A model generated the notes under the pieces. It saw only the letters and a list, made by a program, of their open reading frames with translations, was not told the origin of the DNA and ran no database searches. A stretch of 57,359 bases of DNA from Candidatus Eisenbacteria bacterium. Its GTDB lineage: Bacteria; Eisenbacteria; RBG-16-71-46; CAIMUX01; JAHJDP01. A program made the position numbers and the translations under genes. The stretch spans positions 1 through 57,359 of the forward strand of contig JAHJDP010000011.1 in NCBI GenBank assembly GCA_018831195.1. The letters run 5' to 3'. Below are positions 1 to 56,454 of the stretch, piece by piece. Every line of letters starts with the position of its first letter. The stretch's first letter is position 1.

Positions 1-471
1 GATGGTGAATTGCTGGAAGGTATGCTGCTCGACCAATCGCTGCGCGTCTCCAGGCGCCTGCGCCGGGACGATGTCACCGGCCGGATTGTGCAACTCAAAA
101 TCCGCTATCATGACTTCAGCACCTACACACGCAGGGTGACGCTGGCCGGACCGACCGCCGATGCGGATGAGATTTATCGTGTAGCGCGGCACCTCTTCCA
201 GCGCGTATGGTCCCATAAAGCGGTGCGGTTGATCGGCGTCGGCGTCAGCGGGATCCAGCAAGCGGCTTCTGAGATGCTGGATCTTTTCTCATCGCCGCAG
301 AAGAACGAGAAGCGGCGGAACCTGACGCGGACCATCGACCAGATCGAAGAGCGATTCGGGCAGGGAAAGGTGATCCGGGCCAAGATGCTGGGCCGGGAGA
401 AGGCGGGCGGCACAGGGACGCCATCAAAGAAGGATACGGAGCGGCCGCGGCCCGGGCGGGAAAAGGAGTGA
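1..471 (+). CDS. dinB: DNA polymerase IV (DinB), C-terminal part
   Basis: The reading frame is open from base 1, so this is the 3' end of a gene that starts outside the window; 156 residues are visible. They match the little-finger domain of Y-family polymerases, which grips template DNA during translesion synthesis. The family-typical stretch VRLIGVGVSG is followed by MLDLF, close to the sliding-clamp-binding consensus QL(S/D)LF but with Met for Gln. A basic helix (RTIDQIEERFG) and a charged tail follow. The palm and finger catalytic residues lie upstream and cannot be judged. The stop is 11 bases before the likely start of the next gene. Confidence 0.88.
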   Translation, partial: DGELLEGMLLDQSLRVSRRLRRDDVTGRIVQLKIRYHDFSTYTRRVTLAGPTADADEIYRVARHLFQRVWSHKAVRLIGVGVSGIQQAASEMLDLFSSPQKNEKRRNLTRTIDQIEERFGQGKVIRAKMLGREKAGGTGTPSKKDTERPRPGREKE

Positions 472-482
472 GGGAGATAACC

Positions 483-1049
483 ATGGCCGAAGTTTTTGTA
501 CACGCAAAAGGGATCAACGAGTCGGATGATGTCGGTTCCGGTACGCGGATCTGGGCGCATGCCCATGTCATGAAGGGCGCGAAGGTCGGGCGGGATTGTA
601 ATATCGGCGATGGCGCCTTTATTGAAACCGGAGCGGTTCTCGGCAACTGCGTGACCGTAAAGAACGGCGTTTCCGTTTGGGATCGGGTCACCTGTGAGGA
701 TTACGTCTTCCTGGGGCCGAATGCCGTGCTGACGAACGACCCGGTTCCCCGCAGCCATCCCGACTACAAAGGACATCAGGAGAAATGGCTCCCGACACTC
801 CTGTGCGAAGGAACCACGATCGGCGCCAACGCGACCATCATCTGCGGCACAACGCTGGGACGGTGGTGTTTTGTCGGCGCCGGGGCCGTGGTGGTTCGAA
901 ATGTCCCCTCGCACGGCCTGGTTGTCGGCAATCCGGCCCATCAAATCGGCTGGGTCTGCCGCTGCGGCCAAAGACTCCCCGAAAATCTCACCTGTTCTTG
1001 CGGCAAGCGCTACCGTAAGAGTGATGGAGGCCTCAGGCCGGCGGAGTAA
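483..1049 (+). CDS. Hexapeptide-repeat N-acetyltransferase, WbpD/WlbB-like
   Basis: This 188-residue protein is a left-handed beta-helix acyltransferase. Hexapeptide turns such as GSGTRI, GAKVGR and GTTIGA run through residues 15-140. It resembles the WbpD/WlbB enzymes that acetylate the 3-amino group of UDP-2-acetamido-3-amino sugars for surface polysaccharide. The C-terminus carries two CxC pairs (VCRCG and CSCGKRY), a likely zinc ribbon seen in that subfamily. ATG 483 is preferred over the in-frame GTG at 468 because GGAG lies 6-7 bases upstream of it. No other sugar-pathway gene is adjacent, so the exact substrate is inference. Confidence 0.85.
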   Translation: MAEVFVHAKGINESDDVGSGTRIWAHAHVMKGAKVGRDCNIGDGAFIETGAVLGNCVTVKNGVSVWDRVTCEDYVFLGPNAVLTNDPVPRSHPDYKGHQEKWLPTLLCEGTTIGANATIICGTTLGRWCFVGAGAVVVRNVPSHGLVVGNPAHQIGWVCRCGQRLPENLTCSCGKRYRKSDGGLRPAE

Positions 1050-33726: not shown

Positions 33727-35874
33727 TTAGAGACTGTGGAGGGGGTCGACATCGACAATCAACCGGACCCCGCCCCGCTGAGCTTCATCCCACCGAATGG
33801 CCTCTTCCACCACCGGCTTGAGCTTGCGGGCCGAGAGGGTCCGCAGTGTCAGATGCCAGCGATAGCGGCCTTTCATGCGTTCCAACGGCATGGGAGCCGG
33901 CCCGAAAATCTGCACACCCTGAATCGCCTGCCGGGCGATCCAGGAGACGAGGTGTTGTTGAAGCCTCTCCGAATATTGAATGACCCGCTCTTCCTTCGGA
34001 TCGTCCAGCAGCAGATGCGCCTGGCGCGAGAAGGGGGGGAATCCAAGGGCGCGCCGCTCCTCGATTTCCACGGCGTAGAATTTCTCATAGTCCTGCGACG
34101 CGGCCGCCTGAATCACAAAATGATCGGGCATGAAGGTCTGGAGGATAACCTGACCCGGCCGATCCCCCCGGCCGGCCCGGCCCGCCACCTGGGTCAGGAT
34201 CTGGAAGGCCCGCTCCTGGCCCCGAAAATCAGGGATCGCCATTTCTCGATCCGCCAGTAAAACGCCGACGAGGGTGACACCGGGAAAATCGAGCCCCTTC
34301 CCCACCATCTGCGTTCCCACGAGGATATCGATCTCTCTATCCTCGAAGGCGCCGATCATCTCTCGGTGGGCGCCTCGCCGGCGGGTCGTATCCATATCCA
34401 TCCTCAAGATGCGGGCGCCGGGCATGTGGGTCCGGAGCTGGCTCTCCACCTTCTGGGTCCCAAAACCGCCGTACAGAAAGTCCCGCCCCCCGCAGGAGGG
34501 ACACGAGCGGATTTCCTCCTCGCGGTGGCCGCAGTAATGGCAACGGAGGTGCCCGCCTTGCCGGTGATAGGTCAGGATGACACTGCAGTTGGGACAGGGG
34601 GCGACAAGGCCGCACCCCACGCATTGAACCGATGTTGAGTGCCCGCGACGGTTTAGAAAGATGATCGCCTGCTCCTTGCGGTCCAGACAATTCCGCAGGC
34701 GCTCGAGCAGCAGCTCAGAGAAGGGCTCTCCGGCCAGCCGGGGCTGGGAAAGAACCTCTATGGCGCGCGCCCGGGCTTGCTCCCCATCCGGCGCCTTCGG
34801 CGACAATGTCCTATCGGACGGATGGGCTTCCTCCTCGCGCGGTCGGAGATCGGCCATGACGACACAGGCGGTCGGCCGCTGTTCGACACGTTCCGGCATG
34901 GAAAGGTATCGAAATTTCTCCAGATCGACGTTGTGCCGGCTCTCCAAGGATGGCGTTGCCGATCCGGCGATGGCGACCACTCCCTCGATCCGGGCCCGCA
35001 TCAGGGCGACATCGCGCCCATGATATCGAGGCGAATCCCCCTGTTTATAGGCGCCTTCATGCTCCTCATCGATGATGATGGCGCCCAGCCGCGGTATCGG
35101 GACAAAGGCGGCGGAGCGGGTCCCAACAATGACCGGCAGCTCACCCTCCCGAGCGCGCCACCAGTTTGTCCGGCGCTCGCCGGCCGCCATCCCGCTATGA
35201 AAGATCCCCACCGAGTTCCCCAATCGTCTCTGAAAACGCTGCACCAGCTGCGTCCCCATGGCGATTTCCGGAACAAGCATCAGGGTCCCGCGCCCCTGAT
35301 CCAGGAGATGCTGCGCAATATTAAGATAGACTTCGGTTTTTCCGCTCCCCGTAACGCCGTGCAGGAGAAAGACCGGGGGGGCGCCCCTTTTACCAGCCCC
35401 TTCTTCCGCCACCCGATGGGCCGGGAGGGCACCGAGGATCGTCGCCAGAACCTCCGATTGATGGGGTGTGAGATGGAGGGGTTGCTCGAGCGCCTCGGGG
35501 AGATCCTGCGCATCCGCTGTCTTCCGGGCCCGAGCGCGACCCTTCCAAACCTGTCCGGGTAGAGCCGCCTCAAAGACTTCACCGATCGGGCAGGCATAGT
35601 AGTCAGCGACCCAGCGAACCAGCTTGAAGAGCGCGCCTTCGAGAAGAGGCTCGTCCGGCTCCAGCGCCTCCACCGGCTTGATCCTCCCCGTCAGGACCGG
35701 CGCCTGGGCGGCCGGAAGGCAATCGACGACATAGCCGTGCGTCCGCCGTCCGCGAAGGGGCACAAGAACACGATGACCCGGTTTCAGGATTCCCTCCAGC
35801 TCATCGGGAATGCTGTAACTGAGGGGTTTTCGCAAACCGAGGGGTAAGGCGACAAGGGCGATGCGCTTCGACAC
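33727..35874 (-). CDS. priA: Primosomal helicase PriA (replication restart)
   Basis: This 715-residue 3'-5' helicase reloads the replisome at stalled forks. An N-terminal 3' DNA-binding domain (GHRVLVPLRGRRTHGYV) is followed by helicase motif I GVTGSGKTEVYL, the DEEH box IIDEEHEGAYK and motif III GSATPSLES. A zinc-binding insert has eight cysteines (CVGCG, CPNC, CHYC, CPSCGG). Motifs V and VI (GTQMVGKGLDFP, QVAGRAGRGDRPG) complete it. GTG 35874 is taken as the start because GGAGG lies about six bases upstream and family similarity begins there. Confidence 0.95.
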   Translation of the reverse strand: MSKRIALVALPLGLRKPLSYSIPDELEGILKPGHRVLVPLRGRRTHGYVVDCLPAAQAPVLTGRIKPVEALEPDEPLLEGALFKLVRWVADYYACPIGEVFEAALPGQVWKGRARARKTADAQDLPEALEQPLHLTPHQSEVLATILGALPAHRVAEEGAGKRGAPPVFLLHGVTGSGKTEVYLNIAQHLLDQGRGTLMLVPEIAMGTQLVQRFQRRLGNSVGIFHSGMAAGERRTNWWRAREGELPVIVGTRSAAFVPIPRLGAIIIDEEHEGAYKQGDSPRYHGRDVALMRARIEGVVAIAGSATPSLESRHNVDLEKFRYLSMPERVEQRPTACVVMADLRPREEEAHPSDRTLSPKAPDGEQARARAIEVLSQPRLAGEPFSELLLERLRNCLDRKEQAIIFLNRRGHSTSVQCVGCGLVAPCPNCSVILTYHRQGGHLRCHYCGHREEEIRSCPSCGGRDFLYGGFGTQKVESQLRTHMPGARILRMDMDTTRRRGAHREMIGAFEDREIDILVGTQMVGKGLDFPGVTLVGVLLADREMAIPDFRGQERAFQILTQVAGRAGRGDRPGQVILQTFMPDHFVIQAAASQDYEKFYAVEIEERRALGFPPFSRQAHLLLDDPKEERVIQYSERLQQHLVSWIARQAIQGVQIFGPAPMPLERMKGRYRWHLTLRTLSARKLKPVVEEAIRWDEAQRGGVRLIVDVDPLHSL

Positions 35875-41800: not shown

Positions 41801-42529
41801 ATGAATTCCGCCGGGGATCTTCCAATGAGGGTGATCACAGTGAGCGAAACGATTTCGAAATCGGTAGCGTTCCCCGAAGATCTATCCCTGGCCCGGCGCG
41901 CCGTCATGCGGGATGAAGCGGCATGGCGGGAAATCTACGACACGACGCGGGATCGCCTCTTCGCGCTCCTCTCCTATTACACCGGCCAGCGCGAAGACGC
42001 CTTGGAGCTCCTTCAAGAGACTTACCTCAGCGCTCTCAACTCGATCGATCGATACAGGGGCGACGGCTCCCTCGCCGGATGGTTCGCCATTATCGCCATC
42101 CGCCGGGCGAGGGATTGGCGGCGCAAGCTGGCGGTGTGGAAACGCCGCCGGCAGGAACTGGCGGATGAGCGAGCGCTCGATCCGCCGGCGATGCCGAACG
42201 ATCCCCTGCGTCTTCAATTGCAAGGAGCCATCGCAAAACTCGCCGGAAGGCAGCGGGCTTCATTTCTCATGCGGGAGATGGAGGGATTGTCCTTTCGAGA
42301 GATCGGGGAAGCGCTGGGTATCGGCGAACCGACCGCCCGAGTCCATTATCACCGCGCCAAAAAGATCATGCAGAACCTCCTTAACCCTGATGACGATGCG
42401 ACGGCCGATCCGGCGGACGGCTCGGCCGGCGGCATTGCGACGGAGTCCCGACGCGAGCCCTCGCTGAAGGGCGTGACGACGCGAGCGAACCCGACTTGCG
42501 ACACGGATAATGAGGAGGTGTCGACATGA
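41801..42529 (+). CDS. ECF-type RNA polymerase sigma factor
   Basis: This 242-residue protein has sigma region 2 (about 25-105, with DALELLQETYLSAL and GSLAGWFAIIAIRRARDW) and region 4 (about 140-195, with LSFREIGEALGIGEPTARVHYHRAKK). A 45-residue Asp/Ala/Ser-rich tail after region 4 is longer than usual. GGAGG lies six bases before ATG 41801. Its stop overlaps the start of the next gene by four bases (ATGA), which points to that gene as its anti-sigma or partner. Confidence 0.92.
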   Translation: MNSAGDLPMRVITVSETISKSVAFPEDLSLARRAVMRDEAAWREIYDTTRDRLFALLSYYTGQREDALELLQETYLSALNSIDRYRGDGSLAGWFAIIAIRRARDWRRKLAVWKRRRQELADERALDPPAMPNDPLRLQLQGAIAKLAGRQRASFLMREMEGLSFREIGEALGIGEPTARVHYHRAKKIMQNLLNPDDDATADPADGSAGGIATESRREPSLKGVTTRANPTCDTDNEEVST

Positions 42530-45129
42530 AACGCGACCTAGACCGCTACAAGGATAAGCTGACCCCTGAAGAGGAACGCCGCATTTGGGGCCGGATGCGA
42601 AGCGCCCTTCACGAGGACCGGGACGAAGATAAAAGTTGGAGACTCGGACTCTGGCTGAGCCGCGCCGCCATCGTGGCGGGAACGGCGATGTTGGCGGTTG
42701 CGATTTGGCGCGCCGGATCCCCCCCGCCCAACACAACGCTGCCAGAGGCGCCGCTCCAGCCGGATCGCTATCTCTCCAAGAAAATGGAGCCGAAGAGCGC
42801 GCCGGGAATCGATGCGCCGGCGCATGATGATGATAACTCTCTGAAGCCGGATGGGATTCTGCCGATCCCCGGGGCGAATCAGCTCAGTACGGATGCTCGG
42901 TCCGCGGCGCCGCCGATGGAGGCGCCGGAGATCTACTCTGAGATGAAAGCCACGCGCCCCTCCGATGACGAGATCATTGCGCATCGCGAACGGCAGCCCA
43001 TCATGCTCGCCGATGCGGGCGAGATCCGCGGCAGTGTCTTTAACGAATACGGCGAGCCGATGCCCTTCATTAAGGTGACCCTCAATGACACGCCCTGGGG
43101 CACGATTGTACAAGACGACGGCTCCTTCCGTATCCGCAATCTCCCCGCCGGGAATTACACGCTTAGTGTGATGGAAGCCGGATACCATGAAGTGAACCTC
43201 TCCAACCTGAACGTCAAAGAACGGGAGTTGCTGGAACTCAACGTGGCGCTGGAGACGGATTCGCCCTACGGCCGGATCTGTGGGCGGATTCTCAATTCGG
43301 CGGGTGAGCCGGTCGCCGGAGCGCGCGTGCAGGTGCTCGACGGCGGCGGGCGTGCCGTCACCGCCGATGATGGATCCTTCTGCATCACGGATGTCTCCGC
43401 TGGACGCCATCGGATCTATGTGAGTGCGCGAGACTACCAGGCGCTGACCCTGGAAGACATTGATGTAGAGCGCGGCCTTGAAAACGATCTGGTCGCGAAT
43501 CTCACGAATGCCGATGTACCGGACAAGAAATCAAAAGGGAAAAAGGAATCCACGCTCTCCGGGGGAAAACTTCACTATGAGAGTGCTCCATCAGAAGAAG
43601 CGATCACCTCGATGGAGATTGCCGAGAGCGAACAGGTTGCGTCCTCTGTCACCAGATCCGATCAGGTGCGCTTGATGGAGGCGGGAGGATCCACCGCCGG
43701 CGAATCCCGCTACGGCTCCGCCACCGGCGGCCTTCAGCCGGTCAATGACGAGCTGGCGGACGATATGTTCTTCAAGCACTACGGCGTGAATCCCTTTGTC
43801 GCCGCCGACGAAGACGCCCTCTCAACCTTCGGCCTCGACGTCGACACCGGCTCTTATACGATCGCCCGGAATTATATTCGCAAAGGGAAGCTCCCTCCCC
43901 AGGAAGCGATCCGCGTCGAGGAATTCGTCAACTTCGTCCGCAAGAACTACGATCCGCCGGAGCATGATGATTTCAGCATCCGGGTCGACGGAATGCCCTC
44001 CCCCTTCGCGCCGGTGCAGGACGGATCGTATCAGCTGGTGCGTGTCGGCATCCGCGGCCGGGTCGTTGATTCGGAGGATAGGGAGGCGGTGCAGGTCGTT
44101 CTCGTCATCGACACCTCGGGATCGATGCGGAGTGAGAACCGGATCGAGCTGTTAAAATCCTCCATGGATATCCTTCTCGATGAGCTGCGTCCCGATGATG
44201 AACTCGGCATCGTCGCCTTCAGCAACACCGCCCGCGTCGTATTGCCGATGACCTCTCTGAAGGATGAGGAGAAGATCCATCGGGCGATCCACTCGCTTCA
44301 GCCGAACGGCTCCACCAATGTTGAGCAGGGTTTGGAGTTCGGGTATGCGATGCTGCGCGAAGCGCCCCATCAGAGCCCAAACCAGCGGATCATCCTCTGT
44401 TCCGACGGCGTCGCCAATGAAGGCAACACGGGATGGGAAAAGATCCTGGAAAATGTAAAAGAATCTTCCGACCGGATCATGCTTTCTTCAATCGGCTTCG
44501 GCATGGGCAACTACAATGACGTTCTGATGGAGAAGTTGGCCGACGCCGGTGACGGGCAATATGCCTATGTCGACGAGATCGGTGAAGCGACGCGGGTTCT
44601 CCGCGAAAATATCACCGGCCTGCTGCAGGTGATCGCCCGCGACACCAAGGCGCAAATCGAATTCAATCCGGAGATCGTGGAGCGCTACCGCCTCATCGGT
44701 TACGAGAACCGCGATGTGCGCGATGCGGATTTCCGCAACAACGCCGTTGACGCCGGCGAAATCGGCGCCGGACATGAAGTCACGGTGCTTTACGAAGTGA
44801 AGCTGAAGGATCGCAACCGGCAGGGTGAACTGGCGACCGTTCGCCTGCGGTACGAAAAGCCGGAAGGAGGCCGCTTCGTTGAGTTGGAAGAGATTGCACA
44901 AGTGAACCGGCTCGAGGCGCGTATCGACGATGCGCCGGCTGATCTCATCTTCGACGCCTGCGTCGCCGAGTTTGCGGAGATTCTGCGGGGAAGCTACTGG
45001 GCCAAGGAAAGCACACTGCCCCCCGTCCTCGATCTGGCCCGCGGCGCGATTGAAAGAATGACGTCACGGCCGGATCTTGATGAAATTTACCTGGTCATGC
45101 AGAAGGCGGCCGCCATCAGCCGGCCGTGA
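42526..45129 (+). CDS. Membrane VWA-domain protein (YfbK-like), possible anti-sigma partner
   Basis: The 867 residues begin with a charged cytoplasmic helix (1-40) and one membrane span (about 43-61). A Pro-rich linker leads to two carboxypeptidase-regulatory-like beta domains (about 166-242 and 247-325). A low-complexity Ser/Glu/Lys segment precedes a YfbK-type region with YGVNPFVAADEDALSTFGLDVDTGS and a VWA domain with MIDAS motif DTSGS (near residue 528). DUF3520 forms the end. The topology (short inside, large outside) and the four-base overlap with the ECF gene fit a membrane anti-sigma or sensor. There is no zinc-type anti-sigma motif. Confidence 0.88.
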   Translation: MKRDLDRYKDKLTPEEERRIWGRMRSALHEDRDEDKSWRLGLWLSRAAIVAGTAMLAVAIWRAGSPPPNTTLPEAPLQPDRYLSKKMEPKSAPGIDAPAHDDDNSLKPDGILPIPGANQLSTDARSAAPPMEAPEIYSEMKATRPSDDEIIAHRERQPIMLADAGEIRGSVFNEYGEPMPFIKVTLNDTPWGTIVQDDGSFRIRNLPAGNYTLSVMEAGYHEVNLSNLNVKERELLELNVALETDSPYGRICGRILNSAGEPVAGARVQVLDGGGRAVTADDGSFCITDVSAGRHRIYVSARDYQALTLEDIDVERGLENDLVANLTNADVPDKKSKGKKESTLSGGKLHYESAPSEEAITSMEIAESEQVASSVTRSDQVRLMEAGGSTAGESRYGSATGGLQPVNDELADDMFFKHYGVNPFVAADEDALSTFGLDVDTGSYTIARNYIRKGKLPPQEAIRVEEFVNFVRKNYDPPEHDDFSIRVDGMPSPFAPVQDGSYQLVRVGIRGRVVDSEDREAVQVVLVIDTSGSMRSENRIELLKSSMDILLDELRPDDELGIVAFSNTARVVLPMTSLKDEEKIHRAIHSLQPNGSTNVEQGLEFGYAMLREAPHQSPNQRIILCSDGVANEGNTGWEKILENVKESSDRIMLSSIGFGMGNYNDVLMEKLADAGDGQYAYVDEIGEATRVLRENITGLLQVIARDTKAQIEFNPEIVERYRLIGYENRDVRDADFRNNAVDAGEIGAGHEVTVLYEVKLKDRNRQGELATVRLRYEKPEGGRFVELEEIAQVNRLEARIDDAPADLIFDACVAEFAEILRGSYWAKESTLPPVLDLARGAIERMTSRPDLDEIYLVMQKAAAISRP

Positions 45130-45131
45130 TC

Positions 45132-48100
45132 CTATGTCCCCAAGGCGATCGCCCAGCGCCACTTGATGCCGTCATCATTTGATGTCCATCCCGTGGGATC
45201 ATCGACCCAAAGCGGGGCATAGAATTGCACGTGTCCCCTTGAGAGCCCGGGCATCGGCACTCGCGGCTCCCATTGCAGAAAGAATCCGGCCGATTTCAGG
45301 AATCCCGATGGAAAGGAAAAGCGGTCATCCCAGCGCCAGGCGACTTTCCCTGCTTCGCCATAGGCGAAGACCGGCATGCGGAGCCAGCGCCGGACATCCG
45401 CCGATGGGATGAGATCAAAAAGAGTATCAAGCGGGCGCCCCAGAGCGACATCAAGAGCAGCGGTCCAAATGCGATTCGCCACCGGCCCGATATCACCAAA
45501 ACCGCGCATCGCCGGCCCGTCATTATAAACAATATTCCCGTGCCGCCACCAATCCCCCGGCAATCCACCGTCGGCCCGATAGAGGTATGTCTCATAGAGA
45601 TCCATCGTGGCGCCGCGCGCGGGGCTGTAGCGCCAGGGCGCCATTCGAGCGCGGGCGGCGGCCTGGTTCCCGGCGCGCAGATCAGGCGACGTTACATATC
45701 CGGCGAAGAATTTCAGGGAAAATGTTATACCTGCGATCGCGCCATCCCCATCCGCCTTCACTTCCCAGCGGGTCACCGGGGGCGTCGCGCCACCCAGCGT
45801 GGATTCCAAGAAGAAACCGCTCCTCGTCAGCAAGGAATGCGCCGGTTGATAGACAACAGAGGCGGTCAGTGAATTGTTGATCTCATCATTCCAGGCCAAA
45901 CCCGGCGCCAGGTCGTTCGACTCGAGCATCTGACGGCTGCGGAAAGCCAGCTCTATCTTTGTGGAAGACCCCTCCGTCAATAGCTTGCGGTAGGTCTTTT
46001 GAACGCCGATCTCCTGCCATGAGCGGCCATCAACAACAGCGCTCTTGAGATACCATCGCGAGAGGCGCCCGAGCCACTGAACCGGGGTATCATAAGTCAG
46101 CTCATATCCCGGACGGCCGGAATTCAAGCCGATCCGCGGATAGAGATGCAGTTGATCGAAACGAGTCCAGCTCTCATCGAGATACGATCCCCGCAGATGC
46201 ATCCCCAGCCATACGCCGTCCTGGTTTGTATAACCGGCGGACGGCCGCCAAAGAAGATCATAGGCGTCGAGGCTTTCATGATGAAGCCTCATATTGTCAA
46301 ACTTGAGTTGCGTGGGCCCGAAGGGCTGCAACCGGTAGAAGCGATCCGAACACCAGACATTATCCCGCCCGTCGATATCGGGAAGCCGGCCGCCGCCGTC
46401 GATGCTGACAAAGAGAGGCTCCGCGGGAAGGCTTAACTCCGCGATGTATGTCCGGCGTACGGCGCCGCATCCGGTCCAAGGGGGCAGCACCTTGCAGCCC
46501 GGCGCCCGCTTGGCATAGTCATCCACCGGGATATGGGCCGAATAGCGAGCGCCGTCCCGCAGGAAAAAATCGAGATCGAGCGGCATGAACATATCGCCCT
46601 TGCGCTCCAAATCGATCTTCACGTGATATTGTCGCGCTCCGGCGCCCGTCGTGATCCACTCCCCATCGACAGCAGTGATCGCATAATCCATGGTCATCGA
46701 GGTATAGAGCCATTGATCAAAGAACCAATCGAGCGGGCGACCGGAAGCATCCTCAAAAACGGCGATCATATCTTCCGGATAAGGATGGCGGAATTTCCAG
46801 CGTTCAAAATAGGCGCGGAGCGCTTTCTCAAAAACAGCATCACCGAGAACCAGCCGCAGCATCTCGAGCATCGTCGAGGATTTAAAATAGGTTTGGCGGT
46901 AGTTGCGGTACTCGGGATACCAGCTTGAATCCATCGCCAGATCATCCAGGTACCCTGAATGGGCGAAATTGATATATCGCCGCGCGTTGCGCAGATATCG
47001 CCGCGACGCCCGCGGATAAAACTTCTGCGCATACCATCCGTCTTTTTTGTAAAAGGTGCCGCTTGATTCGGGTCCGAAGATGATATCCATCGCCCAGGCG
47101 GTAATGAAGTTTGTAAATACTTCATCCATAAAGGCGCGGTGGGTTTCATTGCTGCCGACGGCTCCCATGAACCAATTGTGCGCCAGCTCATGTCCGATCA
47201 GACCGTAATATTCGGGAGAACTGTCGCCGTCGAGACTGAGCATGGGATATTCCATGCCCGACGAGGCATCAACCACGGTGTGTTGAGGCCAGACATAACG
47301 TCCGATCTTTTCGCTGAAAACGCGGAGAAACTCGGCGGTGATGGAGTCGGCATCCTGCCATCCGGCGGCATTTTCCTTGCGGACGTAGGCATAAACGGGG
47401 ATGCCGTCCCAGGCGGCCTCACCGATAAGAAAGGTCGGGTCGGCGACCCAGGCGAAATCATGAACGGAATCGGCATGATAACGCCATGTCAGGACCGAAT
47501 CGGGCGGATCGGGGATTTCAGGGCGCGATTCCGGATCGACCGTGGGCGCGTACCAGTCGAGATCCAGCGCCCGGCGCCGGCCGGCCGGCATGACCTCATC
47601 GGGGTTTTGTAGAAGGCCGGTCGCGGCGATAATGTAGTCGCCGGGCGCGGTGATGGCGACGTCGAAGGATCCCCACTCGCCATAGAATTCAAATCCGACA
47701 TGTTGATCAAAATTCCATCCCCGCTTGCGGTCGTAGACAGCAATGCGCGGGTACCATTGGGTCACTTGATATTGTTTACCCTGTTTCCCCATCCGGCCGG
47801 TCACCTTGCCGTAATGGGTTGTAAAATCCATCATGACATGCACGTTTTCGCCGGGGGTGAGGGGAGAAACAAGGGTCACTTTCATAATCGTATCATCGAC
47901 CTGTACCCCCAACGGGTACCCATCACCGTCGGTGACATGGTCGATGAGCGTCCCGCCCTCTTCTTCCGGAGGTATCTTTTGAAGCCGCTTGTCGCCATAG
48001 GCGGCATGCCTGTCGGACATATGCGATCCAGCCCGAAAAGCGTTTTGAAAGAGGTGGAAGTAGAGCGAGACAAGGGTGTCGGGAGAGTTATTTGTATAGT

Positions 48101-48311
48101 CGATTTCGAGATGGCCTATGAGATTGTCACCTGGCGGGTCCAACCGGACCTCGATCCTGGTATTGACCAACTGCTGCCAGTAGGCGGGGTCGGGTGGATT
48201 TCTATCATCCGCCGCCCCGGTGGTTCCAAGGGTAAAGATCAGAAGAATTGGAAGCAGAATTCCAAAGGCATTCTGTTTCAATTTCAGCGGAATTGTTGGA
48301 TTTAAGATCAT
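45132..48311 (-). CDS. M1-family metallopeptidase with C-terminal barrel-like domain
   Basis: From ATG 48311 the product has 1059 residues and a signal peptide (FGILLPILLIFTLGTTGA). The N-terminal 600 residues are an M1 peptidase: the substrate loop SSGMEYPM and the zinc site HELAH with the third ligand Glu 19 residues later (in FMDEVFTNF), near residue 375. The last 400 residues have alternating aromatic strands (AGFFLQWEPRVPMPG, GHVQFYAPLWV) and a final KWRWAIALGT, which looks like an outer-membrane beta-barrel. A surface-anchored aminopeptidase is inferred. AGGAGG lies seven bases before the start. It converges on the VWA gene with only two bases between stops. Confidence 0.87.
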   Translation of the reverse strand: MILNPTIPLKLKQNAFGILLPILLIFTLGTTGAADDRNPPDPAYWQQLVNTRIEVRLDPPGDNLIGHLEIDYTNNSPDTLVSLYFHLFQNAFRAGSHMSDRHAAYGDKRLQKIPPEEEGGTLIDHVTDGDGYPLGVQVDDTIMKVTLVSPLTPGENVHVMMDFTTHYGKVTGRMGKQGKQYQVTQWYPRIAVYDRKRGWNFDQHVGFEFYGEWGSFDVAITAPGDYIIAATGLLQNPDEVMPAGRRRALDLDWYAPTVDPESRPEIPDPPDSVLTWRYHADSVHDFAWVADPTFLIGEAAWDGIPVYAYVRKENAAGWQDADSITAEFLRVFSEKIGRYVWPQHTVVDASSGMEYPMLSLDGDSSPEYYGLIGHELAHNWFMGAVGSNETHRAFMDEVFTNFITAWAMDIIFGPESSGTFYKKDGWYAQKFYPRASRRYLRNARRYINFAHSGYLDDLAMDSSWYPEYRNYRQTYFKSSTMLEMLRLVLGDAVFEKALRAYFERWKFRHPYPEDMIAVFEDASGRPLDWFFDQWLYTSMTMDYAITAVDGEWITTGAGARQYHVKIDLERKGDMFMPLDLDFFLRDGARYSAHIPVDDYAKRAPGCKVLPPWTGCGAVRRTYIAELSLPAEPLFVSIDGGGRLPDIDGRDNVWCSDRFYRLQPFGPTQLKFDNMRLHHESLDAYDLLWRPSAGYTNQDGVWLGMHLRGSYLDESWTRFDQLHLYPRIGLNSGRPGYELTYDTPVQWLGRLSRWYLKSAVVDGRSWQEIGVQKTYRKLLTEGSSTKIELAFRSRQMLESNDLAPGLAWNDEINNSLTASVVYQPAHSLLTRSGFFLESTLGGATPPVTRWEVKADGDGAIAGITFSLKFFAGYVTSPDLRAGNQAAARARMAPWRYSPARGATMDLYETYLYRADGGLPGDWWRHGNIVYNDGPAMRGFGDIGPVANRIWTAALDVALGRPLDTLFDLIPSADVRRWLRMPVFAYGEAGKVAWRWDDRFSFPSGFLKSAGFFLQWEPRVPMPGLSRGHVQFYAPLWVDDPTGWTSNDDGIKWRWAIALGT

Positions 48312-48496
48312 GAACCGGCCTCCTGGTCGCGGCGATTTGATATGCCGGTTCGATTCTAAGGCTTTGGCTGGAGATTTGCAGCACTGATTCCATGGCGGCG
48401 GGGACATTACCAACAAACCCCCGCGAATCGCGCCTTGCAACACGATCCGCGGAGGTCGGGGGTGGGACTCGTTTGACGGACCTAATGGGCGCCGAT

Positions 48497-48802: not shown

Positions 48803-49113
48803 CTGTGTCACCTCCCTTCAATAACACGCGGCCAATAATCTGATACGAAGGCGGCAACCGATCGCCCTCGCGCTTCGTGTTATCTATTGCAGGAGAGGTC
48901 TCTATTTTTTTCGTAATTTTTGTAAAAGGGAGAGAATTTTCGCACCTGTTACAGCGCAAACAAAAAGAAAGGAGCCTCAATCACCCTGGCCATTCGAGAG
49001 GAAACGCGTTAAAATGATTGCGGGTTGGCTGGACCGTTCAGATCGGCCCCCAGTTCAATGCGGTGATTTGCCCAGCACCCTGATCGTGGAGTTTCTGTGA
49101 CTGGAGGTTGAAA
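48803..49113. other. Divergent intergenic region, no gene seen
   Basis: This 311-base gap lies between the small Cys-rich gene and the first LVIVD gene. An AT-rich tract (48900-48930) may hold a minus-strand promoter, but no box pair is convincing. A 28-codon frame at 49014 has only a poorly spaced GAGG. Confidence 0.45.
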
Positions 49114-51381
49114 ATGCAAGTATCTCAACATGCCAGGGTCTTAAGCATTCTGCTTCCGGCGCTTTCCGGAGACGCCCTCTCGCGGCGGCGAGTTCCTTTC
49201 CGCCCTCTCTTTCATGTCTCCATCCTGGCCGCTGCCCTGTCGTGTATCTGCTCATCCGGTTTGGCCGGGGCTGAATGCATCGATTACAGAGACTACATCC
49301 ATTGGGTCGGTTGTGTGGACACGCCGGGGGATGCCTGGGGCGTGGCCGTCTCGGGATTCTACGCCTATGTCGCGGACGATTATTCCGGGCTCCAGGTCAT
49401 CGACATCACAAATCCCCAAAGCCCCGAGATCGTGGGCAGTGCGGATACGCCGGGATCCGCCAAGGACGTGACCGTCTCGGGCTTCTACGCCTATGTCGCG
49501 GACTATTATTCCGGGCTCCAGGTTATCGACATCAGCGATCCCCAGAGCCCCGAGATCGTGGGCAGCGCTAACACGACGGGATCCGCCAGGGGCGTGGCCG
49601 TCTCGGGTGCCCGCGCCTACCTCGCAGGGGGGTCATCCGGACTCCAGGTCATCGACATCAGCGATCCTCAGAGCCCCGAGATCGTGGGCAGTGCGGATAC
49701 GCCGGGCCGGGCTCAAGATGTCGCCGTTTCAGGCAACTACGCCTACGTCGCGGACGAATGGTTCGGGCTCCAGGTCATCAACATCAGCGATCCCCGGAGC
49801 CCCGAGATCGTGGGCAGTCTGGACACGCCGGGGCTTGCTTATGATGTCGCCGTCTCGGGTACCCACGCTTACGTCGCGGACGACATGTCCGGCCTCCAAG
49901 TGATTGACATTTCAAATCCCCAAAACCCGCAAATCGTGGGACAGACGAATACACCGGGCGGGGCTTTTGGTGTGGCCGTCTCGGGCACGCAGGCCTACAT
50001 CGCGGATTTTACCTCCGGTCTCCAGGTGATAGACATCAGCGATCCTCAGAGCCCCAAGATTGTGAGCAGCATCGGCACGGCGGACATGGCCTTTGGCGTT
50101 GCTGTCTCGAGTACCTACGCTTTCATTGCGGACTATGATGGGGGGTTCCATGTGATCGACATCTCGAATCCTCAAGTGCCCGAGTTAGTGGGCGGCGCGG
50201 ATACGCCGGGAGATGCTCAGGGTGTCGTCATCTCGGGAACCCACGCCTACGTCGCGGGCGGTTACTCCGGTTTTCAAGTGATCGATATTACGAATCCCCA
50301 GAACCCACAGACCTTGGGCAGCGTGGATACGCCGGATCATGCCCGGAGCGTTGCCATCATGGGCACATGCGCCTATTTAGCGGATGCTTCTTCCGGTCTT
50401 CAAGTGATCGACATTACAAATCCCCTGAATCCCCTGATCGTGGGAAGCGCGGATACGCCTGGCTCGGCACTTGACGTCGCTGTTTCGGATACGCACGCCT
50501 ACATCGCCGATGGGTCCTTCGGTCTGCAGGTGGTTAACATTACAAATCCCCTGAATCCCCTGATCGTGGGCGGCGTGGAAACTCCAGCGATTGCCTATGG
50601 CATTGTCATCTCGGGCAATTATGCCTACGTCGCGGCTTACACTTCAGGTCTCCAGGTGATCGATATCACGGACCCAGAAAACCCTCAGATAGTGGGCAGT
50701 GTCAACACACCGGGAGTAGCCAGGAGGCTGGCCGTCTCAGGCACTCAAGCCTATGTCGCAGACGATGACTCCGGTCTCTATGTCATCGACATCACGAATC
50801 CCTTGAGTCCCGAGATTATGGGCAGCGTGGCCACGCCGGGGGATCCCTACGCCGTGGCCGTTTCGGGCCGTCACGCCTACGTTACGAATGAGTATTCCAC
50901 TCTTCTGGTGATCGACATCGCAAATCCCCAGAGTCCAGAGATCGTGGGTGGCGCGGCTACACCGGGGGTGGCCTTTGGTGTGGCCGCCTCGGGCGCCTAC
51001 GTCTTCATTGCGAGCGGTCATTCCGGTCTGCAGATCTTCCCGATTCAGTGCGATCCGGCATCGAATGTTGAAGCAAACCATCAGACTGCATCCAAGATGC
51101 ACCTGAGGGTTTTTCCCACACCGAGCTCGGGCCAGACGTTTATACATTTTGAAACCTGTAGCAGCGGTCGGATTCAGGCGGATATTTACAGCGTTGCCGG
51201 CCGCCGGGTTCGAGAGCTGTCCAACCGGATCTTCAACGCCGGCGATAACAATGGTACCAACCACAACATCTTATGGGATGGCCTTTACGCCGACGGTCGC
51301 CCCGTCCCAGCAGGGATTTATCTTGTTCGGGTTGCAACGGCCCAGGAAATCACAACGACGCGGTTTGTGATGATTCGATGA
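49114..51381 (+). CDS. LVIVD-repeat beta-propeller surface protein
   Basis: This 755-residue protein has a long, basic leader with a hydrophobic core (FHVSILAAALSCICSSGLAGA). Fourteen repeats of exactly 42 residues follow, each of the form VGSADTPGSAxxVxVSG then YVADxxSGLQVIDIxxPxxP. The LVIVD family folds into beta-propellers, probably one or two seven-bladed rings. The last 85 residues are a FlgD/Por-type domain (LRVFPTPSSGQTFIHFE to RFVMIR) typical of exported surface proteins. GGAGGT five bases before ATG 49114 sets the start; a TTG at 49108 lies within that site. Ligand unknown. Confidence 0.9.
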   Translation: MQVSQHARVLSILLPALSGDALSRRRVPFRPLFHVSILAAALSCICSSGLAGAECIDYRDYIHWVGCVDTPGDAWGVAVSGFYAYVADDYSGLQVIDITNPQSPEIVGSADTPGSAKDVTVSGFYAYVADYYSGLQVIDISDPQSPEIVGSANTTGSARGVAVSGARAYLAGGSSGLQVIDISDPQSPEIVGSADTPGRAQDVAVSGNYAYVADEWFGLQVINISDPRSPEIVGSLDTPGLAYDVAVSGTHAYVADDMSGLQVIDISNPQNPQIVGQTNTPGGAFGVAVSGTQAYIADFTSGLQVIDISDPQSPKIVSSIGTADMAFGVAVSSTYAFIADYDGGFHVIDISNPQVPELVGGADTPGDAQGVVISGTHAYVAGGYSGFQVIDITNPQNPQTLGSVDTPDHARSVAIMGTCAYLADASSGLQVIDITNPLNPLIVGSADTPGSALDVAVSDTHAYIADGSFGLQVVNITNPLNPLIVGGVETPAIAYGIVISGNYAYVAAYTSGLQVIDITDPENPQIVGSVNTPGVARRLAVSGTQAYVADDDSGLYVIDITNPLSPEIMGSVATPGDPYAVAVSGRHAYVTNEYSTLLVIDIANPQSPEIVGGAATPGVAFGVAASGAYVFIASGHSGLQIFPIQCDPASNVEANHQTASKMHLRVFPTPSSGQTFIHFETCSSGRIQADIYSVAGRRVRELSNRIFNAGDNNGTNHNILWDGLYADGRPVPAGIYLVRVATAQEITTTRFVMIR
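49306..51042 (+). repeat. 126-bp direct tandem repeats inside the LVIVD gene
   Basis: Fourteen in-register copies start at 49306, 49432 and so on to 50944, with no length change. They encode the 42-residue propeller blades. Copies 1-6 are most alike (for example GAGATCGTGGGCAG recurs), which points to recent duplication or gene conversion. Confidence 0.9.
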
Positions 51382-54210: not shown

Positions 54211-56454
54211 ATGCGACGGTATGCGCTCGTGATTGTGGCTCTCTCAGTGTTGATCCTGCTTCCCCCATGGCCGAGTCCATCCCAGGCGGACTGCATCGCC
54301 TATAACAACTACGTTCATGCTCTTGATGTCATTTATCCTGCCGGCTACTTACGATCCATGGTCTATCAGGCCCCTTATCTCTATGTCGTCAGTGATGATA
54401 GCCTTTTAACAATCTTGGATGCCGCGGACCCCGGGGCGCTTCAGGTGATCGGCTCACTTGAACTCCCCGCCCAACCGCGCAAAATCGACATACGGGGATC
54501 GGTAGCTTACCTCGTCTATGCTTTCTCGAATCAGCTCCAGCTGGTTGACATCTCTGATCCGTATACGCCACAAACATTGGGATCCCTTCTTATCCCTGCC
54601 GGGCCGCAGAGCGTTGCCGCCACAGAATCCTATGTTTATGTTCCGGCTTGGGATTATGGCGAGGACAATCACGGCCTCTACGTGGTGGACGTCACCAAGC
54701 CCCTGACCCCTTTCGTTGTCGGCCGAGTGGAGCTGAACCACTATCCACGCCATGTGATCCTTTCGGAACCTCTCGCTTTTGCCATCGATTCCGGCGATCT
54801 GTGGGTGCTCGATATTTCTACGCCGCAACAACCGAAGCCGCTTGGCTCCATCGGGATCCCAGGTGAATCAGCCTACTTGGCGGCCCGGGACGAATATGTT
54901 TTTGTGGTCTGTGACGCCGGAGAATACCCCGCCACGGGAAACGGTCTCTACATGATCAATATCAGCGATCCCGCCGATCCCTGGATCGAGGGAGTTTATG
55001 ACGCCGAAGGAGCGCCTTCCTATCACGTGGGACTGTGGGAACAGTATGCGATCGTCGGTACGCATGGCGGAGGATTCGCCTTCATCGACATTTCAGATCC
55101 CTCCAACATGCACATCGTTGACACCATCGGCATGCAACCAAACCCGGGGGATTTTGCCGTCGACGGTTCGATCCTCTTCGCCCGCTCCTACTCGATCGCA
55201 TCCTATAAACTCATCAATCCGATGACACCCGCCCCCGTCGCCAGCGTGCTCGAAACGGAACAATCAAGAGCCATCACATCCCAGGGTGATTATGCCTACA
55301 CCCTTCGCGATCGGGGCCTGGAGTTCTGTGTCGTCGATCTCTCTGACTCGGATCATCCGTTCAAGATAGGCAGCAAGATCCTTGACCTGGATTCCGGCGG
55401 TGATGTAGCCCTCACCGAACAAAATCGCAATGGATTGTTCGCCTATGTCGCCGAGGGTGGCGATAATGATGGCTTTCACGTAATCGACATCAACGATCCG
55501 GCTGATCCCGAGCCCGTTAATTTCATTCCGCTCGACCATTATCCGAGTGATTTCGAGGTGGAAGGGAACTACCTCTATGTGATGGCCGGCTACCTCGGCC
55601 TCCTGACTTATGATATTAGCGACCCGGTAGAGCCGGAATACATCAGCAGCATCGGATTCGGATATAGCGCGTCAATGACCAAGGCGGTGGGATCCATGCT
55701 CTATGTCGGCCGGAGAGTTAGCAACCATTCAGATCTGATCATCATCGACGCCGCCGATCCCTATGATCCACAGATCGTGGGGACGAGTTCCGAACCGGAA
55801 ACGCCTTGTGAATATTGGATCGAAGAGACCATTCTTTATATCGCGGATGGCTGGGGGGGATTGCTCATTATGGACATCAGTGATCCAGAGAATCCCACGC
55901 CGATCAGCCGCTTGCGAACCGGGAGCAACGTTCAAGCCCTTGTCATCGAGAATGATGTCGCCTACCTCGCCGACACGGCAGAGCGCTCGGGGCTCCATTT
56001 GGTGGATGTTTCCAACCCGGCTATTCCCTCCCTGGTCGGCTACTATCCCTGTTCCTTCCCTTGTGATCTCGAGCTGATCCATGGGCATGTCCTCATCGCA
56101 ACCTACAATGAGAATTTGGAAGTGGCGCCCCTCGAATGCGGCGGCATCATCGATGTTGATGATTCGCAACCGGCATGGGCCGGTTTCGGCATGTCCATCC
56201 ACCCCAATCCCAGCTTCGACCGCGTCTCGGTGCGCTTGGTGACGCCCGCAAAGGAGATGACTCGTTTGACGGTGCACGATGTTCAGGGCCGGCTCATCGA
56301 CCAACTTCACTGGGGTCCGCTTGCCGCTGGAACGCACCACTTTCAATGGGATGGCCGGCGCCGTGATGGGAGGGCCATGCCGGTGGGTGTCTATTATCTG
56401 CGTTACCTATCCGGCAGGCTGTTGAAGAGTCAGTCTATTGTCTTGGTTCGGTGA
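54211..56454 (+). CDS. Second LVIVD-repeat surface protein
   Basis: The 747 residues start with a signal peptide (ALVIVALSVLILLPPWPSPSQA). More than ten LVIVD-type blades follow (for example LYVVSDDSLLTILDAADPGA and GGLLIMDISDPENPTPISRL), of uneven length and well diverged, unlike the uniform repeats of the protein at 49114. A FlgD/Por-type end follows (MSIHPNPSFDRVSVRLV to KSQSIVLVR). AGGAGGTGATCC lies directly before ATG 54211. The two proteins share the opening pattern CIxYxxYxH and are paralogues by architecture. Confidence 0.88.
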   Translation: MRRYALVIVALSVLILLPPWPSPSQADCIAYNNYVHALDVIYPAGYLRSMVYQAPYLYVVSDDSLLTILDAADPGALQVIGSLELPAQPRKIDIRGSVAYLVYAFSNQLQLVDISDPYTPQTLGSLLIPAGPQSVAATESYVYVPAWDYGEDNHGLYVVDVTKPLTPFVVGRVELNHYPRHVILSEPLAFAIDSGDLWVLDISTPQQPKPLGSIGIPGESAYLAARDEYVFVVCDAGEYPATGNGLYMINISDPADPWIEGVYDAEGAPSYHVGLWEQYAIVGTHGGGFAFIDISDPSNMHIVDTIGMQPNPGDFAVDGSILFARSYSIASYKLINPMTPAPVASVLETEQSRAITSQGDYAYTLRDRGLEFCVVDLSDSDHPFKIGSKILDLDSGGDVALTEQNRNGLFAYVAEGGDNDGFHVIDINDPADPEPVNFIPLDHYPSDFEVEGNYLYVMAGYLGLLTYDISDPVEPEYISSIGFGYSASMTKAVGSMLYVGRRVSNHSDLIIIDAADPYDPQIVGTSSEPETPCEYWIEETILYIADGWGGLLIMDISDPENPTPISRLRTGSNVQALVIENDVAYLADTAERSGLHLVDVSNPAIPSLVGYYPCSFPCDLELIHGHVLIATYNENLEVAPLECGGIIDVDDSQPAWAGFGMSIHPNPSFDRVSVRLVTPAKEMTRLTVHDVQGRLIDQLHWGPLAAGTHHFQWDGRRRDGRAMPVGVYYLRYLSGRLLKSQSIVLVR

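Follow-up and report, generated by a model that had tools for sequence, protein, structure and literature searches.

Does this locus of a Candidatus Eisenbacteria genome encode a zinc peptidase that carries its own outer-membrane barrel, and if so, on which side of the membrane would the enzyme lie? The window (the whole stretch of DNA analysed, 57,359 nucleotides of contig JAHJDP010000011.1) holds a minus strand open reading frame at 45132..48311, which starts with the ATG at 48311 and has exactly 1059 codons and a stop codon that ends at 45132. All features of the protein given below lie on that strand. A Shine-Dalgarno-like AGGAGG, read by eye 7 nt before the ATG (48319..48324), and the hydrophobic N-terminus of the product indicate that the start is well placed. 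Residues 1-33 (48213..48311) are a putative Sec signal peptide, with a hydrophobic stretch and a modelled helix at residues 15-27. The convergent neighbour (42526-45129) encodes a YfbK-like von Willebrand A protein and only 2 bases lie between both stop codons.

By prediction and comparison the protein consists of two modules. The first (residues 45-654; 46350..48179) has the N-terminal saddle, catalytic domain and C-terminal beta-sandwich of an M1 peptidase, as assigned by Pfam PF01433 and VIA-align. The Pfam Peptidase_M1 (PF01433) match covers residues 370-534 (46710..47204) with an E value of 4.1e-16 and 59.7 bits versus a curated cut-off of 27.7. The model of the whole protein (mean pLDDT 84.5, pTM 0.83) gave as its best M1 fold match 1z1w, the tricorn-interacting factor F3 (VIA-align Z 31.7, rmsd 3.0, 457 residues aligned), and many aminopeptidases were also among its VIA-align fold matches. 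The sequence-only reading had the zinc peptidase complete within the first 600 residues; it is indeed intact, but the M1 part reaches to about residue 654 with its C-terminal beta-sandwich.

Conservation of residues was scored in an alignment of 35 rows that comprised the window protein and its relatives, the rows being picked from homologue search matches with truncated or repeated ones left out. The HEXXH-18-E zinc site (H374, E375, H378 and E397) is intact in the window protein. H374, E375 and H378 of the HELAH zinc-binding/catalytic motif (residues 374-378; 47178..47192) are found in 34 of the 35 rows, and the third zinc ligand E397 (47121..47123) is found in all 35. The sequence GMEYP (residues 352-356; 47244..47258) presumably corresponds to the GxMEN exopeptidase motif of M1 enzymes, with the glutamate kept (E354, 32/35 rows) and the asparagine replaced by tyrosine. 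A putative catalytic tyrosine, Y475 (46887..46889), so assigned on the presumption that it plays its usual role in M1 enzymes, is present in 34 of 35 rows. One relative (L152) has R, L and Q in place of H374, E375 and H378 yet retains the barrel and is perhaps a non-enzymatic member. Given this one row of 35 without the first three zinc-site residues, peptidase activity would not be universal in the family.

The second module is modelled as an Omp85-type barrel of 16 strands (residues 684-1058; 45138..46262). In the model strands 1-8 are residues 684-695, 699-713, 716-728 (broken), 734-743, 751-760, 763-775, 783-795 and 811-822, and strands 9-16 are residues 830-838, 847-859, 862-874, 947-956, 981-991, 1005-1014, 1027-1036 and 1054-1058; a short additional strand ahead of the barrel (667-671) is outside the count of 16. 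Modelled loop L6 (residues 875-946; 45474..45689) spans 72 residues and separates strand 11 from strand 12, so that 11 barrel strands lie ahead of it and 5 after. It holds R936-G937-F938 (45498..45506; R936 in 32 and G937 in 34 of the 35 rows), the RG[F/Y] loop-6 signature motif of Omp85 proteins. When the whole model was submitted to Foldseek, M1 enzymes occupied all 50 of the matches listed and masked the barrel; hence residues 655-1059 were folded by themselves (27-row alignment A2; mean pLDDT 82.9, pTM 0.80). The 50 matches then listed by Foldseek were all of the Omp85 superfamily, the best being TamA 8us1 (E 7.4e-10), and the same was true of the 50 listed by VIA-align, headed by Sam50 7vku (Z 20.5, rmsd 4.8, 307 residues aligned). 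The listed VIA-align matches had Z scores of 20.5-17.3 with 270-315 residues aligned, rmsd 4.2-6.2 and identity of 10-14%. Residues 31..405 of the barrel model superpose on BamA 423..808, and such end-to-end matches to closed barrels argue that this barrel is also closed.

An outer-membrane barrel of at least 10 strands had been proposed from the letters of the sequence, with a beta-sandwich only or ARM repeats named as the contrary outcomes. Sixteen consecutive predicted strands and fold matches that, among those listed, were exclusively Omp85 proteins bear out the barrel, and neither contrary fold is seen in the predicted structure of the C-terminal part. Together with the Pfam M1 match these results uphold the proposed architecture, a peptidase anchored by its own barrel. 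One further line of argument was discarded. Hydropathy alternation in the strands exceeded that of 5000/5000 shuffles, but strands of the soluble M1 control did likewise, and we do not count it as evidence for a membrane barrel. Classical type Va autotransporters consist of a passenger plus a C-terminal 12-strand barrel, and the 16 predicted strands found here set the window protein apart from them.

Sequence profiles gave the same family assignment as the fold. Pfam recognized no family in the C-terminal part of the window protein alone, and for Omp85 (PF01103) the protein falls under the Pfam cut-off, whereas its relatives L151, L006 and L008 are over it (33, 70.9 and 64.9 bits, respectively). 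Among ten relatives scanned, three were over the cut-off and L089 matched below it, and 3 of the 27 family barrels (the A2 rows) matched Pfam Omp85 at E 0.1 or better. An hhalign comparison of the A2 family profile with A3, a set of eight Omp85 barrels encoded by the same genome, gave a probability of 98.7% (E 2.3e-16). Nine TonB-receptor barrels, also from that genome (A5), served as the control and gave a probability of 0.7%, which rejects a generic outer-membrane barrel. Searched against PDB sequences, the family profile returned 19 rows, of which the top 15 were BamA (E 0.0045 to 0.031); the others were CD33 (E 0.15 and worse) and look like chance. Hence, by the model and by sequence comparison the C-terminal half is a barrel of the Omp85 (BamA/TamA) kind.

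Might two neighbouring genes, or an annotation or assembly artefact, have been read as a fusion? A few relatives (L150, L090) are indeed split into two frames, but the window frame is uninterrupted, and the barrel-only query, a linkage test whose starting point excludes M1, found the same order elsewhere. This query matched 55 of 385 genomes at 1e-5, many of the weak matches covering the L6 region only and probably being other Omp85 proteins. At 28 of the 30 best loci an M1 peptidase was encoded in the same open reading frame, and these 28 loci came from 28 genomes and 17 coded families (hand count). Of the two remaining loci, L200 begins at the edge of its contig, and at L204 a piece of M1 lies just upstream in a different frame. 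The single window frame and the 28 loci rule out an artefact, to which we give practically no weight, and the same-frame M1 at those loci makes the fusion a conserved architecture. The sequence-only reading had called the enzyme unusual, but it is no isolated case, as many genomes encode a protein built in this way. A search with the whole protein gave matches at E 1e-25 or better in 44 of 132 genomes from a single other phylum, mostly with frames of ~1000-1100 residues, the others (~620-650 residues) being too short for a barrel. Within the class to which the window belongs, 12 of 47 genomes matched at 1e-20, its own included, and at that threshold none of the ten other genomes of its order did. 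M1-Omp85 pairing is recurrent in poorly studied bacteria.

A quick tree was built from 96 M1 rows, 62 with a barrel and 34 of those available without, leaving out rows with <300 M1 residues and 29 loci that repeated or truncated others. The barrel label changed 6 times on this tree versus a shuffled mean of 28.1, and 59 of the 62 barrel rows fell within one group of 64 (SH-aLRT 91). This group has five barrel-less rows: L150 has its barrel in the next frame, the frames of L099 and L173 extend as far as the fetched DNA does, and those of L070 and L172 are complete but have no barrel. The barrel rows outside the group are an Omnitrophota pair (L006 and L008) and L202, which has a very long branch. 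This distribution makes one main origin of the fusion likely and a second fusion possible, for a tree made by a quick method and with long branches. The barrels of the Omnitrophota pair resemble standard Omp85 much more closely (Pfam E 1.8e-19 and 1.2e-17), and the two proteins are possibly a second, independent M1-Omp85 fusion. The tree rows nearest to the window protein (L186, L087 and L088) are outside its class and apart from its class-mates, a placement that suggests transfer or repeated loss in its history.

Given an M1 enzyme joined to an Omp85 barrel, the side of the membrane on which the enzyme resides becomes the central issue. The segment at the place of a POTRA domain (residues 543-654; 46350..46685) is all-beta with no helix in the model, and no POTRA domain was found by Pfam in the window protein; as modelled, the M1 beta-sandwich stands in for that domain. 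In Omp85 barrels the two termini are periplasmic, and the RG[F/Y]-bearing loop starts from the outside. The even number of predicted strands (16) and the position of L6 after strand 11 would therefore have the M1 half enter from the periplasmic side, as do the BamA POTRA domains. The gaps between strands average 16.7 residues on the predicted outer side versus 7.2 on the inner (10.5 versus 7.2 without L6), although loops L1-L3 are no longer than turns, and loop lengths support this topology weakly. POTRA domains are periplasmic and so is the enzyme domain of PlpD, according to passages of PMC11116518. This precedent and the Omp85 topology favour an aminopeptidase tethered to the inner face, and speak against the surface enzyme of the sequence-only reading.

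We thus favour, with a probability of about 0.6, a periplasmic M1 aminopeptidase that trims peptides and has its own Omp85 barrel as a tether to the outer membrane. To judge from its N-terminus, the protein would be exported by Sec, after which the 16-strand C-terminal barrel would insert into the outer membrane. The aminopeptidase would fold in the periplasm and be held at the periplasmic mouth of the barrel, against the membrane's inner face, with the M1 beta-sandwich as the connector that replaces a POTRA domain. There it would trim free N-termini, either those of incoming external peptides or those of outer-membrane protein fragments, and the barrel may be only an anchor. The neighbourhood provides no functional or substrate clue: gene clustering over the window and 16 regions that surround relatives found no neighbour common to the whole set and none shared with the window, and only close relatives had most of their neighbours in common.

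A barrel that instead translocated its M1 domain in the manner of a type Vd autotransporter, for digestion of extracellular peptides, seems unlikely to us. The first description of PlpD had it secreting its enzyme (as told in PMC4104836 and PMC11116518), and the FlgD_ig tails of two other M1 enzymes of the same genome (L002 and L003) make extracellular peptidases plausible. However, the 16 strands and the L6 position place the N-terminus in the periplasm in the model, a 600-residue globular enzyme would presumably be a poor passenger, and later work showed that the PlpD enzyme stays in the periplasm, passage of a folded domain through the barrel being judged highly unfavourable (PMC11116518).

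Slightly better placed than surface display, yet still doubtful, is a quality-control or assembly factor in which the barrel still works much as BamA or TamA does and the peptidase removes outer-membrane proteins that have stalled or been mis-inserted, in the manner of the zinc proteases BepA, YcaL and LoiP near BAM. Assembly is the usual role of Omp85 barrels (as stated in part of PMC4104836), and zinc proteases of family M48 act on stalled outer-membrane proteins at BAM (as stated in part of PMC13067283). Diversified Omp85 roles are also hinted at by the two propeller-Omp85 proteins and one patatin-POTRA-Omp85 protein of the same genome. However, M1 enzymes cleave single N-terminal residues and are poor on long unfolded chains, there is no POTRA domain for receiving substrates and no neighbour gene was found common to distant relatives. 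An extended form, to which we assign a low probability, would have an insertase barrel and a zinc aminopeptidase as a self-contained proofreading unit that destroys or trims whatever the seam fails to insert, the unit being ancient, spread between phyla and one of several independent enzyme-Omp85 pairings.

The periplasmic tethered aminopeptidase resembles PlpD and the other patatin-Omp85 (type Vd) proteins in having an Omp85 barrel preceded, on a single polypeptide, by a soluble hydrolase, and may work like PlpD. Those proteins are lipases with POTRA between enzyme and barrel, whereas here the enzyme is a peptidase and POTRA is lacking. As Pfam found no patatin domain in the window protein (M1 only), we do not file it under type Vd/patatin-Omp85. 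BamA, TamA and Sam50 share the barrel fold, the 16 strands and the L6 RG[F/Y] motif, but bear POTRA domains rather than an enzyme, and identity in the structural matches listed was only the 10-14% given above. The fold, zinc site and exopeptidase glutamate are those of M1 aminopeptidases (tricorn factor F3, APN, ERAP and the Deinococcus two-domain M1), although GxMEN reads GMEY in the window protein. So far as is known, those enzymes are soluble or held by a single helix. The E. coli proteases BepA, YcaL and LoiP are of a different peptidase family and are not known to be fused to a barrel. They are nevertheless alike in being zinc proteases (M48) at the outer membrane (part of PMC13067283).

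PF00149, which we take to be the calcineurin-like phosphoesterase family, bears on novelty. Heinz and Lithgow (2014) distinguished ten Omp85 subfamilies, some of which have no POTRA but a propeller or 'metalloprotease' (PF00149) domain, and passages of that paper (PMC4104836) make the barrel the defining feature, POTRA being usual but missing from several subfamilies. Their 'Metallo' subfamily is likewise a non-POTRA N-terminal metal hydrolase plus an Omp85 barrel, but its N-terminal domain, termed a metalloprotease there, is PF00149, whereas PF01433 is a true zinc peptidase family. The word 'peptidase' is absent from the main text of PMC4104836, and no M1 type is among the subfamilies described in the passages of it used here. 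A 2026 review puts the Omp85 family at at least 12 members (part of PMC13067283), and no M1-Omp85 protein appeared by title or abstract start among the open-licence PMC papers that our searches listed. M1-Omp85 is a new enzyme-Omp85 subfamily, outside those ten, and, PF00149 being a phosphoesterase family, it may be the earliest fusion of a true peptidase to Omp85 to be noted in the texts searched. Enzyme-Omp85 fusions have been little studied, PlpD being the sole one that we found with close study (open-licence PMC). With a conserved M1-Omp85 subfamily this scaffold carries a second class of enzyme, in this case with no POTRA, and one can ask whether the Omp85 barrel acts generally as an anchor in the periplasm. 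Proteins in which Pfam and NCBIfam mostly recognize just an M1 or aminopeptidase N fragment also receive a testable name.

The same genome encodes two TolB-like propeller (PD40)-Omp85 fusions of the WD40-Omp85 kind (L163, contig C28, ~115145-115957; L166, contig C119, ~93363). It also has a PlpD-like patatin-POTRA-Omp85 protein (L165, contig C23, ~34639-35331), which, with the propeller and M1 types, brings the kinds of enzyme- or propeller-Omp85 fusion in this genome to three. The C-terminal FlgD_ig domains of its M1 peptidases L002 and L003 resemble secretion-sorting tails, and L002 also has a weak Por_Secre_tail match. On the plus strand of the window, 49108-51381 and 54211-56454 encode LVIVD-repeat propeller proteins with FlgD_ig-like tails, one of the two with a weak Por_Secre_tail match.
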